From Gemmatimonadales bacterium (GTDB taxonomy: Bacteria > Gemmatimonadota > Gemmatimonadetes > Gemmatimonadales > JACORV01): a stretch of 38,976 bases of DNA. Position numbers and translations under genes: made by a program. The stretch spans positions 1-38,976 of the forward strand of contig JAUYOW010000290.1 of assembly GCA_030697825.1 (NCBI GenBank), read 5' to 3'. The notes beneath the pieces are model-generated. The model made no database searches, had not been told where the DNA came from, and worked only from the letters and a program-made list of their open reading frames with translations. Below, in pieces: positions 10,594 to 16,007 of this stretch. Position 1 is the first letter of the stretch. Every line of letters starts with the position of its first letter.

Positions 10594-11300
10594 GCGAAGG
10601 ACCGGTGCGGCACTTCCACGAAGAGCTCGCGATCCTCAAGCAGCGGCTGATCGCCCTGTCGAGCGAGGCGGAGGAAGCCGTGGGAAACGCGGTCGCAGCG
10701 CTGTTGAAGCGCGACCGGCAGATGGCGCAGGCGGTAATCCGCGGCGACCGCATCATCAACACCCAGGAAAGCAGCATCGAGGAGCAGGCGTTCCAGTTGA
10801 TCGCGCTCCACCAGCCGATGGCCCGCGATCTCCGACTTATCTTTTCCGCGATCAGGATCGTGCACAACCTCGAGCGGGTCGGCGACCACGCGGTCAACAT
10901 CGCGCAGTCGGCAGAGCGGCTGCTCGAGTACCCGCACATCATCCCTGAGCCGGAAATCGTCGAGATGGCCCGGCAGTCGCGCCAGATGCTCGGGGACTCC
11001 CTTTCGGCCTTCGTTCGGGGGGACGGCCCGCTCGCCCGGGAGGTCTGCCGCCGCGACGATGCCGTGGACTCCCTCAACGACTCCGTCTTCCGGATCCTCC
11101 TCACCCACATGATGGAGGACCAGCGGAGCATCGGGCCTTGCATGGAGCTGCTCCTGGTGAGCCGGAACCTGGAACGCGTGGCCGACCTCGCCACGAACAT
11201 CGCCGAGGATGTAGTATTCGTAGCTGAAGGAAAGACCATCAAACACCACGCCGAAGACGAGTTCCAGTCAGGGTCCGATGGGCATTCGGGAGGCACATAA
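10590..11300 (+). CDS. phoU: Phosphate transport regulator PhoU
   Basis: 236 residues forming two PhoU three-helix bundles in tandem. Each carries the metal-binding signature: [11 protein letters not shown] in the first and [13 protein letters not shown] in the second. ATG 10590 overlaps the pstB2 stop (ATGA). PhoU couples the Pst transporter to PhoR and shuts the regulon off when phosphate is plentiful. A short polar tail after the second bundle (rich in H, D, E, S, G) overlaps the next gene by 23 bases and may only reflect that overlap. Confidence 0.95.
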
Positions 11301-11979
11301 GTACCCGGGCCGCTTGATCGTCGTCGAAGGCATCGACGGCTCGGGGAAGTCCACCCAGCTCTCGCTCCTCCAGACGTTCCTGCTGTCGGAGGGGTACGAC
11401 GTGTCGTTCACCGAGTGGAACTCGAGCCCGCTCGTGAAGGACACGACCAAGCGCGGGAAGAAGAAGAATCTCTTTTCGCCCACGACCTTCTCGCTCATCC
11501 ACGCCACCGACTTCGCCGACCGCCACGAGCGCTCCATCCTGCCGCCGCTCCAGTCCGGCCTGGTGGTGCTCGCGGACCGCTGGGCGTACACCGCTTTCGC
11601 GCGCGACTACGTGCGCGGCTGCGACCCCGAGTGGCTCCGCAACCTGTATGAGTTCGCGACCCGGCCCGACCTCTCGCTCTACTTCCGGGTGGACATCGAC
11701 ACGTCGGTCGCGCGCATCACCGGCGGCCGCATCCAGCCCAGGTACCACGAGGCCGGCATGGACCTCGGCCTCTCGCCCGATCCCATCACCAGCTTCCGGC
11801 TCTTCCAGAGCAAGGTGCTCGAGGTCTACGAGGGCGTGGCCAAGGAGTTCGAGCTGACGGTCATCGACGGCTCGCGATCGGTCGTGGAGCAGCAGCGCGA
11901 GGCGCGGCGCCTCGTAAAGCCGCTTCTCAAGGGCCTTCGGCGCACCGGACTCACCCGCCCGGTCCTGGCGGCGCGCTGA
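11278..11979 (+). CDS. Thymidylate-kinase-like P-loop kinase (tandem copy 1, intact Walker A)
   Basis: 233 residues of the thymidylate-kinase fold. Residues 14-26 read IVVEGIDGSGKST, a perfect Walker A with K24. Further on are a DR motif (ADRWAYTAFARDYVRG) and a C-terminal DGSRSVVEQQ strand/helix as in TMK. The sequence between differs from housekeeping Tmk: FSLIHATDFADRHERSILPPL replaces the usual LLFAADRAQH, and the DRY-SS-AYQ nucleotide patch is not classic. It may phosphorylate dTMP or another nucleotide. It overlaps phoU by 23 bases and is followed by a paralogue at 1-base overlap, so all three are probably co-translated. The link to phosphate or polyphosphate metabolism is contextual. 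Confidence 0.75.
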   Translation: MGIREAHKYPGRLIVVEGIDGSGKSTQLSLLQTFLLSEGYDVSFTEWNSSPLVKDTTKRGKKKNLFSPTTFSLIHATDFADRHERSILPPLQSGLVVLADRWAYTAFARDYVRGCDPEWLRNLYEFATRPDLSLYFRVDIDTSVARITGGRIQPRYHEAGMDLGLSPDPITSFRLFQSKVLEVYEGVAKEFELTVIDGSRSVVEQQREARRLVKPLLKGLRRTGLTRPVLAAR

Positions 11980-12698
11980 TGGAGACCCGCTTCTACGGCA
12001 GCGGGCTCGGCAGGCTCGAGGTCGGGGCGCTCCCAGGGCACCTCATCGTGATCGAGGGCGCCGACGGCGTCGGCCGCTCCACGCACATCGAACTGCTCCA
12101 GGGCTGGCTCGAGGGCCATGGCTTCGCCGTCGCCTCCACCGGGCTGAAGCGCTCAGCGCTCACGCGCCGCGGCATCGTGTCGGCCAAGCAAGGGCACTCC
12201 TTCGACCGCACGACGATGTCCCTCTTCTACGCCACCGACGTCGCCGACCGGATCGAGCACGAGGTCATCCCGGCGCTGCGCTCCGGCTTCGTCGTGCTGT
12301 CCGACCGCTACGTCTTCACCACCATGGCGCGCGGGCTGGTCCGCGGCCTCCATCGCGAGTGGCTCGACAAGCTGTACGGCTTCGCGCTGGTCCCGGAGCG
12401 GGTCCTGTTCCTCCGCCTCGACCCCGACGAGCTGATCCGCCGCACCCTGCGCCGCGGCGCCGAGCTGGACTACTGGGAATCCGGCCGAGACATCGGCCTC
12501 GCGCCGGACCTCTACTCGTCGTTCCGCCAGTACCAGTCGCTGATTCTCCAGGAGTTCGACCGGATGGCGGAGACGTACTGCTTCACGACGATCGACGCCT
12601 CGCGCTCGGTCGAGGAAGTGCAGTCCGACCTCCGCCGCGAGCTGGCGGGGCTCCTTGATCCCACGCTTCTCGCGCCGATGGGCGATGCCACCGACTGA
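11979..12698 (+). CDS. Thymidylate-kinase-like protein with Arg in Walker A (tandem copy 2)
   Basis: 239 residues, clearly paralogous to its neighbour: IVIEGADGVGRST, SLFYATDVADRIEHEVIPAL, LSDRYVFTTMARGLVRG, RDIGLAPDLYSSFRQYQ and IDASRSVEEVQ align with the upstream gene. The invariant Walker A lysine is replaced by arginine (R33, codon CGC, within 12076-12102). In most P-loop kinases this abolishes or strongly reduces catalysis, so this copy could be a regulatory or structural partner of copy 1; some P-loop proteins do tolerate the change. The ATG overlaps the preceding stop in TGATG, typical of subunits made in equal amounts. Its end overlaps ppx by 14 bases. No function is assigned beyond the fold. 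Confidence 0.72.
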   Translation: METRFYGSGLGRLEVGALPGHLIVIEGADGVGRSTHIELLQGWLEGHGFAVASTGLKRSALTRRGIVSAKQGHSFDRTTMSLFYATDVADRIEHEVIPALRSGFVVLSDRYVFTTMARGLVRGLHREWLDKLYGFALVPERVLFLRLDPDELIRRTLRRGAELDYWESGRDIGLAPDLYSSFRQYQSLILQEFDRMAETYCFTTIDASRSVEEVQSDLRRELAGLLDPTLLAPMGDATD

Positions 12699-14276: not shown

Positions 14277-15278
14277 TCAGTACGGCTGCCCACCCCCCCC
14301 TGCCGGCGCACACGTCCCGCTGGTGCACGACGCCCCGTGCGCGTGCGGCTGCTTCAGCAGCTCGGCCAGCGGCAAGGGCCCCGGCCCGAGACACGTCACG
14401 AACCCCACCCCGCTCGACGTCCCGATCCGGCTCGCACCGGCGGCGATCATCGCCAGGGCGGTCGCGCAGTCCCGCACCCCGCCCGACGCCTTCACGCCCA
14501 GATCGTCACCCACCACCAGCCGCATCAGCCGGACCGCTTCGGTCGTGGCGCCGCCCGAGGCGTGGAAGCCGGTGGAGGTCTTGACGAAGTGCGCGCCGGC
14601 CTCCTTCGCGATCGCGGAGGCCTTCACGATCTCCTCGCTCGTCAAAGCTGAGCTTTCGATTATCACTTTGACGATGGCGCGCCGCGACGCTTCCACGACC
14701 GCCCGGATGTCGTCCTCGACGTAGGCCCACTCACCGCCCTTCGCGCGGCCCAGCGCGATCACCATGTCCACCTCGCCCGCGCCGCCGGCCACGGCCTCAG
14801 CCGCCTCAGCCGCCTTGGCTCGCGACGTGGTGGCGCCGAGCGGGAACCCGCACACCGTGGCGACCGCGACCTCGGCGCCTTCCAGCTCCTTCGCGCAGAG
14901 CTCGACCCACCCTGCGTTCACGCACACCGCCGCGAACCGGTGCTGCCGCGCCTCCCCGCACAGCTTCACGACTTCCTTGCGGGTCGCCTCGGCCTTGAGC
15001 AGCGTGTGGTCCACGAAGTCCGCCACCCGGCGCGCGCCCTTCGCCGGTGACCACGCCGCCTTCATCACGTTCGGCCCGCGCCAGGAGATGTCCGTGATGG
15101 CGACCGCCGCGGGTTGCGTCGCCGGCGCCAGGGCCAGCGCCAACGCCCCCCTGCTCACTGCCTCCTGCCGACCACTGCGCGTCGGCGCGTCTGCGCGTCT
15201 ACCGCCGACTGCCTTCCTGCCCGACTGAATCCGGGCTACGATCTCATCCGCCAGCGCATTGAGCTCAGCCTCGGTCAC
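14277..15278 (-). CDS. deoC: Deoxyribose-phosphate aldolase with microcompartment-targeting-like N-terminus
   Basis: 333 residues. The catalytic domain (about 82-295) is class I DERA: D171 in EVDMVI, Schiff-base lysine K233 in FVKTSTGF and proton-relay K263 in GVKASGGVR, matching E. coli D102, K167 and K201. It splits 2-deoxyribose-5-phosphate into acetaldehyde and glyceraldehyde-3-phosphate. Ahead of it, residues 1-20 (TEAELNALADEIVARI) make an amphipathic helix, followed by about 60 residues of Ala/Arg/Pro-rich linker. That layout is the encapsulation-peptide style of microcompartment cargo. The C-terminus has an extra tail with HAH and CTSGTC. GTG 15278 overlaps the stop of the EutN-like gene (GTGA); the longer ORF to 15347 would enter that gene. 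Confidence 0.88.
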   Translation of the reverse strand: MTEAELNALADEIVARIQSGRKAVGGRRADAPTRSGRQEAVSRGALALALAPATQPAAVAITDISWRGPNVMKAAWSPAKGARRVADFVDHTLLKAEATRKEVVKLCGEARQHRFAAVCVNAGWVELCAKELEGAEVAVATVCGFPLGATTSRAKAAEAAEAVAGGAGEVDMVIALGRAKGGEWAYVEDDIRAVVEASRRAIVKVIIESSALTSEEIVKASAIAKEAGAHFVKTSTGFHASGGATTEAVRLMRLVVGDDLGVKASGGVRDCATALAMIAAGASRIGTSSGVGFVTCLGPGPLPLAELLKQPHAHGASCTSGTCAPAGGGGQPY

Positions 15279-15559
15279 AGGACCTGCCTCCCGCGTATGT
15301 CCACTCGATCCAGCACGCCCACTATCACCGCCTGCACGGGTATCCATTGATCGTCGAAGATCTTCCGCGCCGACGAACCCTCCTGCACCACGAGCACCTT
15401 GTCACCCACGCCCGCGTCCACCACGTCGAGGCAGATGACTTCCGTGCCCTCAGGCTTCAGGTCGAGGGAAAGCCGCCGCACCAGCAGCAGCTTCTTCCCT
15501 TCGAGCCGTTCATTCTTGTGCGTGGAAACAACATCGCCGACCACGGTGCCAAGGTACAC
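15275..15559 (-). CDS. EutN/CcmL-family microcompartment vertex protein (copy 1)
   Basis: 94 residues, the normal size for the EutN/CcmL (BMC-P) family. It opens with MYLGTVVGDVVSTHKNERLEGKK in two short pieces typical of the family: a hydrophobic first strand, then the VVSTHKNE turn and KLLLVRRL. The GDKVLVVQEGSSARKIF segment and a final VGVLDRVDI strand complete the small beta barrel. Such proteins form pentamers that cap the vertices of bacterial microcompartments. GTG 15559 has GGAGG a few bases upstream, and the stop overlaps deoC. With the aldolase carrying a targeting-like helix, it implies encapsulated sugar-phosphate metabolism. Family assignment is strong; the existence of a compartment needs shell hexamer genes elsewhere. 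Confidence 0.87.
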   Translation of the reverse strand: MYLGTVVGDVVSTHKNERLEGKKLLLVRRLSLDLKPEGTEVICLDVVDAGVGDKVLVVQEGSSARKIFDDQWIPVQAVIVGVLDRVDIRGRQVL

Positions 15560-15572
15560 TCAGCCTCCAAGA

Positions 15573-15647
15573 GGGGAGCGGTTCCTGGGGGAGCGGTACC
15601 CTGGGGTGCGCCACCGCTGGTACCGCTCCCCGCTCCCCGCTCCCCGT
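15573..15647. repeat. Spacer of GC-rich hairpin and 7-bp tandem repeats between the two EutN-like genes
   Basis: A 13-bp perfect inverted repeat, GGGGAGCGGTACC (15588-15600) and its complement (15619-15631), flanks an 18-base loop. A near copy, GGGGAGCGGTTCC, sits 15 bases upstream at 15573-15585. From 15626 the unit GCTCCCC/CTCCCCG repeats three times at 7-bp period to 15647, immediately before the stop of the next gene. The block fills almost the whole 88-bp spacer. It might act as a weak terminator, an mRNA stabiliser or a repeat element; no T-run is present on the minus-strand 3' side. Confidence 0.8.
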
Positions 15648-15920
15648 TCACTCCCCATGAATGTCCAACCTGTCAACCTTACCCACCACCGCGGCGTCAA
15701 CAGCGACGTCGAGCTTCCACAAAGCAATCGATGCCTCTCGCGCCGTGATGTAGTAGCACAGCTCGCCCGGGCCCAGCCCGAACGTGTCGGCCGCGACCAC
15801 CGGCCCGCCGCGTTCCTTGCCAGAAGCATCCACCGGCTGGAGCCACTGCAACGGAATCCCTTGCAGCGTGTCCTGCTTCGCGGTGGAGACCACGCGGCCG
15901 ATGATCCTGGCGAGGTACAT
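15648..15920 (-). CDS. EutN/CcmL-family microcompartment vertex protein (copy 2)
   Basis: 90 residues starting with MYLARIIGRVVSTAKQDTL, the same opening as copy 1 (MYLGTVVGDVVSTHK), followed by GIPLQWLQPVD, GPVVAADTFGLGPGELCYY and a final VVGKVDRLDI strand. Size and pattern are those of the EutN/CcmL pentamer family. The two copies are clearly diverged, as in loci that use different vertex proteins. ATG 15920 is chosen because an in-frame start 36 bases upstream would encode the repeat block. No Shine-Dalgarno sequence is visible: the bases before the ATG belong to an inverted repeat. It lies between the rhomboid gene and copy 1 in one orientation. Confidence 0.85.
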   Translation of the reverse strand: MYLARIIGRVVSTAKQDTLQGIPLQWLQPVDASGKERGGPVVAADTFGLGPGELCYYITAREASIALWKLDVAVDAAVVGKVDRLDIHGE

Positions 15921-15921
15921 G

Positions 15922-16007
15922 TCAGCGGGCACAGGGGCACAGGCGCACAGGCGCACAGGCGGCGTCCCTTCCGTGCCGCTGTGCCCCTGTGCCCCTGTGC
16001 CCGCTGA
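15922..16007. repeat. Large inverted repeat of 8-bp units filling the rhomboid/EutN spacer
   Basis: Arms 15922-15950 and 15979-16007 are 29 bases each and complementary at 28 positions, separated by a 28-base loop. Each arm is built from an 8-bp unit, GGGCACAG or GGCGCACA-like, in tandem. One arm starts one base from the EutN copy 2 ATG and the other ends exactly at the rhomboid stop, so the repeat is the whole spacer. An RNA hairpin this strong would affect transcription or translation between the genes. Confidence 0.85.

Follow-up and report, generated by a model that had tools for sequence, protein, structure and literature searches.

A satellite locus with two vertex-protein genes and a helix-tagged deoxyribose-phosphate aldolase, probably part of a fragmented microcompartment in Gemmatimonadota

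Two EutN/CcmL-family vertex-protein genes and a deoxyribose-phosphate aldolase gene (DeoC/DERA) follow each other in the order BMC-P1, BMC-P2, DeoC on the minus strand (14277-15920) of the window, i.e., the whole stretch of 38,976 nucleotides of Gemmatimonadales DNA analyzed here (Table 1). The locus raises the question of what an aldolase does beside microcompartment (BMC) vertex proteins when no shell hexamer is encoded with them. A first-pass annotation had read it as a minimal cluster with a targeted-looking DERA and had left two options, namely hexamer genes elsewhere in the genome, which would make it a satellite locus, or some unknown mode of assembly between the pentamers and the enzyme. 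The first option is very probably correct: the cluster appears to be a satellite locus of a fragmented BMC in Gemmatimonadota with DERA-based acetaldehyde chemistry, whose assembly, encapsulation, substrate and flux we infer. This is the best explanation of the gene families, the tails shared by DERA and PduL, the conserved scattered synteny and the co-occurrence of the parts.

The three genes were confirmed as annotated. In profile searches, BMC-P1 and BMC-P2 matched PF03319 with 68.9 and 90.9 bits, respectively; the nearest solved chains were 5V74 for BMC-P1 and 4I7A and 5V74 for BMC-P2. DeoC matched PF01791 and the TIGR00126 deoC equivalog (254.6 bits; cut-off 117.3) and was the sole DeoC match found in the host genome. 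Its barrel resembles many solved DERA structures, and the EVDMV and KTSTG motifs and the lysine of KASGG are invariant in the DeoC alignment (A1). Translation of DeoC probably starts at the GTG, since this codon overlaps the BMC-P2 stop codon by four bases (GTGA) and the start in relatives coincides with it; the mechanically called ATG at 15347 was ruled out on both counts. The proposed translational coupling would apply to this pair, but a gap of 88 bp containing a GC-rich inverted repeat separates BMC-P1 from BMC-P2, so that overlap is limited to BMC-P2 and DeoC. Repeat-like sequence similar to the inverted repeats of the window was seen by eye at two further loci of the genome, on contigs C10 and C150. 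Tandem thymidylate-kinase-like genes (n = 2) followed by Ppx/GppA (window 11278-12698) adjoin the DeoC/BMC-P locus in the family to which the window belongs.

Table 1. Features of the window, loci of the dispersed layout and the module of RpiB and PduL.
Feature	Position	Strand	Description
BMC-P1	15648..15920	-	EutN/CcmL vertex protein, 90 aa, ATG at 15920
BMC-P2	15275..15559	-	EutN/CcmL vertex protein, 94 aa, GTG start
DeoC/DERA with N-terminal extension	14277..15278	-	333 aa, probable GTG start at 15278
Putative encapsulation peptide of DeoC, MTEAELNALADEIVARIQSG	15219..15278	-	pattern as in PduL N-termini
DeoC linker	15027..15218	-	low conservation (alignment A1)
Conserved DISWRGP in DeoC linker	15072-15092	-	alignment A1
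DERA TIM-barrel domain	14403..15026	-	TIGR00126 match to residues 85-292
26-nt inverted repeat, GC-rich	15570..15634	.	between BMC-P1 and BMC-P2
35-nt inverted repeat, GC-rich	15922..16007	.	abuts BMC-P1 start codon
Locus A	dispersed genomes		DnaK/rhomboid/BMC-P1/BMC-P2/DeoC
Locus B	dispersed genomes		BMC-H1/BMC-H2/AldDH/PduL/thioesterase/HEAT protein
Locus C	dispersed genomes		MazG/alanine racemase/deoB/cdd/BMC-P3/lipoprotein
~45-aa TPAARD module	L199:3-494, L200:23-310, L210, other RpiB loci; L006:9833-10897		RpiB N-terminus, PduL C-terminus

The remaining shell genes were found in the same genome, a draft of 333 contigs that is 98% complete. Profile searches with PF00936 and PF03319 returned two BMC-H and three BMC-P above cut-off: the BMC-H pair on contig C10, the third BMC-P on contig C56 and the two BMC-P of the window. 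Satellite loci lie away from the main locus and encode shell proteins with or without enzymes; since the window contig carries two BMC-P and DeoC while the BMC-H lie on another contig, the locus is read as a satellite. Thus, the statement that a shell hexamer is missing is true of the window and not of the genome, and the term minimal cluster is misleading for an organelle spread over at least three loci, none of which contains BMC-H and BMC-P together. On C10, BMC-H1 and BMC-H2 are followed by an aldehyde dehydrogenase (AldDH) and PduL, so that both parts of the metabolosome core, a CoA-acylating-type AldDH and the phosphotransacylase, are present. PduL scored above its family cut-off. The best NCBIfam model of the AldDH was TIGR02518 (578 bits, under the cut-off of 620), and its nearest solved matches are acetylating acetaldehyde dehydrogenases, the type to which it would be assigned by closest match. 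An aldehyde dehydrogenase with an N-terminal helix had been anticipated; the conserved helix is instead C-terminal, following a variable linker, in seven genomes. C56 carries deoB, cdd and BMC-P3, the latter two overlapping; deoB, cdd and a thymidine/pyrimidine phosphorylase on C150 all scored above their cut-offs. No BMC-T was found in this draft, where only the two single-domain BMC matches were obtained; the same search picked up tandem-domain BMC-T-like proteins in three other genomes (G022, G038 and G050), and a BMC-T may have been missed given the 333 contigs and 98% completeness. In dispersed genomes, BMC-H2 (L006:12439-12894 and homologues) ends in a conserved extension of ~45 residues, LKVVELRxxAR...FPLKGRxLxxAxRxELLxxFR, which looks SAP-like by eye and has no Pfam match.

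Homology to deoC starts at residue ~84-85, and the N-terminal extension of DeoC thus comprises ~84 residues, a helix followed by a linker. With the GTG as start codon, the helix lies at the very N-terminus. The linker of roughly 60 residues noted earlier is present and poorly conserved, within an extension longer than was stated, and holds one conserved motif, D-[IL]-S-W-R-G-P, at residues 63-69. AlphaFold2, run on a shallow alignment and with low overall confidence, modelled residues 3-24 as a helix, the stretch up to ~90 as disordered and the barrel beyond it, with strands and helices spanning 92-286 (pLDDT of ~52 in the helix and below 50 at residues 16-94). Residues 1-20 had been described as an amphipathic helix. 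The helix is conserved across nine tailed DeoC genes, but its amphipathicity was not significant in the hydrophobic moment of the single window sequence (p = 0.31). For this reason, comparison across enzymes and species was used, and it is conservation and sharing that carry the argument. Outside the DERA model, the four closest DeoC proteins also share a conserved C-terminal tail (residues 314-333; window 14280-14339) with the motif H-x(3)-C-x-[ST]-G-T-C.

PduL on C10 starts with MTKDEVAKLVELVATRLAEK, and its N-terminal helix pattern is common to DeoC and PduL. We derived a helix score from the N-termini of seven PduL proteins alone and used it to score the 1,041 N-termini of all loci examined. 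The window DeoC reached 22.1 (background mean -14.6, sd 7.8; z = 4.7) and was outscored by one PduL and by the DeoC of a same-genus relative. Next below it ranked two more tailed DeoCs, a G050 protein resembling purine nucleoside phosphorylase and the AldDH N-terminus of a consolidated SPU-type locus (see below). Among 12,072 20-mers of window proteins, the DeoC helix alone reached this score. The two f2 DeoCs (G029 and G037) scored poorly because their helix is displaced by a residue or two and the test is ungapped. Encapsulation peptides are described as amphipathic helices of ~18 residues at a protein terminus, connected by a linker of low conservation and required for packaging (PMC12339742; PMC8217296), and the tails agree with this description in part: in DeoC, the terminal position, the pattern and the linker were seen and the pattern recurs in PduL, amphipathicity standing at the p value given above. 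BMC-H genes in the genome and conservation of the DERA helix among relatives were the two points on whose absence the first-pass annotation would have given up its reading; both were observed.

Among 61 genomes compared, BMC-H occurred in 10, BMC-P in 11 and PduL in 8, in largely overlapping sets, and every PduL-bearing genome was shell-positive. In ten genomes of the order, the dispersed layout of three loci (A to C; Table 1) was found complete or in part, with matching neighbours. In G029, which is assembled in 20 contigs and rated 100% complete, one contig holds B and C, at a distance of 109 kb, and a different contig holds A; the scatter is therefore real and no assembly artefact. Synteny of the dispersed loci is kept across three families with intact frames. 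When 39 loci of the collection were scanned for shell genes, BMC-P turned up in the three closest only (L010-L012).

Two further genomes, G022 and G038, carry a consolidated SPU-type locus consisting of RpiB, DeoC, BMC-T, BMC-H, BMC-P, AldDH, BMC-T and two BMC-P (L128:6577-13154 and L129), and scattered and single-locus forms thus coexist within one order. In G022, a triose-phosphate isomerase gene adjoins this locus. In the BMC-P tree, each member of the dispersed triplet pairs with one member of the consolidated triplet (support of 98/94 for BMC-P1, 87/83 for BMC-P2 and 95/91 for the third pair), and judged from this tree the two triplets are orthologous. At a separate locus of G050 (L143:6872-8807), a BMC-T-like gene stands beside a gene that looks PduS/RnfC-like by eye, which possibly adds cofactor recycling.

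Tailed DeoC was present in 10 of the 12 shell-positive genomes; the other two, 71% and 80% complete, had no DeoC match. For the association of tailed DeoC with shell genes, Fisher p was 7e-10, shared ancestry ignored. The DeoCs of shell-negative genomes are different ones, with core identities of mostly 33-54%, and the helix was absent from the approximately ten of their N-termini that were read; the other genomes of the set lack the shell genes, the tailed DERA and PduL alike. These observations bear on the possibility that the BMC is functional while its aldehyde comes from another enzyme, DERA being an ordinary cytosolic enzyme of nucleoside salvage with a tail that does something else. As the sole DERA found in the genome, it must also serve housekeeping, and its helix is weakly amphipathic. 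However, the tail accompanies the shell genes and matches that of PduL, the gene adjoins BMC-P, and the closest relatives of the AldDH, acetaldehyde dehydrogenases, argue against another source of aldehyde, so that we regard this explanation as unlikely.

At locus C, BMC-P3 is flanked by cdd and the lipoprotein gene in each of the six dispersed genomes that were read, and its position in G029 and G037 agrees by coordinates; in G042 the contig ends within the locus. It is missing in 23 other genomes, both consolidated ones included, where the flanking genes are usually kept. BMC-P3 thus has a fixed site in the deoB-cdd operon, where it is either present or cleanly missing, and it alone is BMC-specific there; deoB occurs in 54 of the 61 genomes, which rules out deoB and cdd as BMC-specific genes. 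Pyrimidine phosphorylase and bare RpiB are near-universal and hence uninformative as markers. Relative to a same-genus genome, dN/dS was 0.12 for BMC-P1 and 0.09 for BMC-P2; within DeoC it was 0.23 for the barrel vs. 0.60 for helix plus linker. Both vertex proteins and the DERA barrel are under constraint, and the helix with its linker is freer. An SPU-type BMC in decay, with its genes split up and its assembly lost, would fit the lack of BMC-T in comparison with G022 and G038 and the absence of the system from most of the order, but is made very improbable by these low ratios and by the intact frames and synteny across three families. An equally improbable reading, BMC-P and DERA forming a hexamer-free assembly of unknown kind apart from BMC-H, was suggested by their joint occurrence without BMC-H at locus A of every dispersed genome and by two drafts (G002 and G003) having BMC-P without detected BMC-H, and was rejected as needless because BMC-H exist in the genome, all best-assembled dispersed genomes carry them, PduL at a contig edge of G003 places the hexamer locus probably in a gap, two relatives hold DeoC, BMC-H and the BMC-P triplet in one locus, and DERA shares its tag with PduL.

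For the fragmented BMC, the following pathway is proposed. The facets would be built from the two BMC-H proteins and the vertices capped by the three BMC-P, two from the window and one from C56. DERA and PduL would be drawn in by their near-identical N-terminal helices and AldDH by its C-terminal helix. In the cytosol, pyrimidine-nucleoside phosphorylase and phosphopentomutase (DeoB), together with cytidine deaminase, would convert deoxynucleosides via dR1P (phosphorylase) to deoxyribose-5-phosphate (dR5P; DeoB), which would enter the shell and be cleaved by DERA to acetaldehyde and glyceraldehyde-3-phosphate (G3P). Acetaldehyde, which is toxic, would be retained and converted to acetyl-CoA and then, via PduL, to acetyl-phosphate, with CoA being recycled. 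Since no acetate kinase was found and two PTA-family genes are present, one of them fused to malic enzyme, acetyl-phosphate is probably converted back to acetyl-CoA by cytosolic Pta. The search for acetate kinase covered the host genome and six others of its family, and its absence is unusual for a PduL-containing metabolosome. An alcohol dehydrogenase of the PF00465 type for NAD+ recycling was not found in the host genome either, the sole PF00465 match being better explained as AroB (3-dehydroquinate synthase).

In a literature search mostly outside subscription journals, no paper on a DERA microcompartment of Gemmatimonadota was found beyond Axen 2014 and Sutter 2021. The system combines published features of FRAG, HO and SPU types; its functional assignment is well supported, and it is not a categorically new system. 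FRAG types, with shell genes at several genomic places and a BMC-P triplet, were reported from Gemmatimonadetes; a few have a proximal AldDH, and they are listed as having no obvious signature enzyme that produces an aldehyde (Sutter et al. 2021, PMC8217296). The host resembles them in its scattered shell genes and BMC-P triplet but differs in that helix-tagged DERA, PduL and tailed RpiB are identified and the chemistry can be named. The HO type I satellite locus holds two BMC-P and an aldolase, as does the window, and some HO genomes encode elsewhere a pfam01791 enzyme with an encapsulation-peptide-like N-terminus (Sutter et al. 2021); 5V74, the best solved match of both vertex proteins beside 4I7A for BMC-P2, is itself an HO shell entry. 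HO shells have BMC-T, however, while none was found in the host genome, whose BMC-H pair and third BMC-P occupy two further loci.

SPU loci were named from single-cell genomes including Gemmatimonadetes, and DNA-sugar catabolism was proposed for them (Axen 2014, PMC4207490). Shared with SPU (Axen 2014; Sutter 2021) are DeoC, RpiB, AldDH and PduL, DNA breakdown products as proposed substrate and a BMC-P triplet that the tree makes orthologous to that in the consolidated loci of relatives. SPU BMCs are defined by BMC-linked DeoC (pfam01791) and RpiB (pfam02502). In the host, DeoC adjoins BMC-P; RpiB is present, but its N-terminal module ties it to the shell indirectly. A single main locus with BMC-H, BMC-P and enzymes exists in G022 and G038 and not in the host, where no BMC-T was found, RpiB lies apart and the third BMC-P sits in the deoB-cdd operon. 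The organelle is thus apparently fragmented, BMC-T-free and SPU-like. FRAG BMCs are listed in the 2021 catalogue as functionally cryptic; from the shared tag and the conserved linkage, DERA would be the missing aldehyde-producing enzyme of such a system, which makes DNA-sugar breakdown in a shell without BMC-T testable. The scattered genes, including one shell gene that comes and goes at a fixed site of a deoxynucleoside-salvage operon, offer a natural experiment on how such an organelle stays intact over evolution.

RpiB of the host and of other dispersed genomes carries the N-terminal module of ~45 residues, and in the consolidated loci the same module is placed after a helix; the host gene is split over the ends of two contigs. 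Among the RpiBs read, the module was found in shell-positive genomes only and was absent from ordinary RpiBs, and those of the family of the window showed no obvious helix tag. It matches the PduL C-terminus (hhalign probability of 98.2%, E of 5e-14). The module, [IV]TEADVRxAA...GAxVTPAARDLARxLGVAL, may possibly be a further element for docking cargo, different from encapsulation peptides and recruiting the separately encoded RpiB, a suggestion that we hold to be less likely than not. In that case, shared protein tags rather than gene clustering would unite an organelle encoded at four or more unlinked loci. The module also gave weak matches to the E3-binding domain and to the end of the ethanolamine-utilisation family model TIGR02536 (E of 6e-4).
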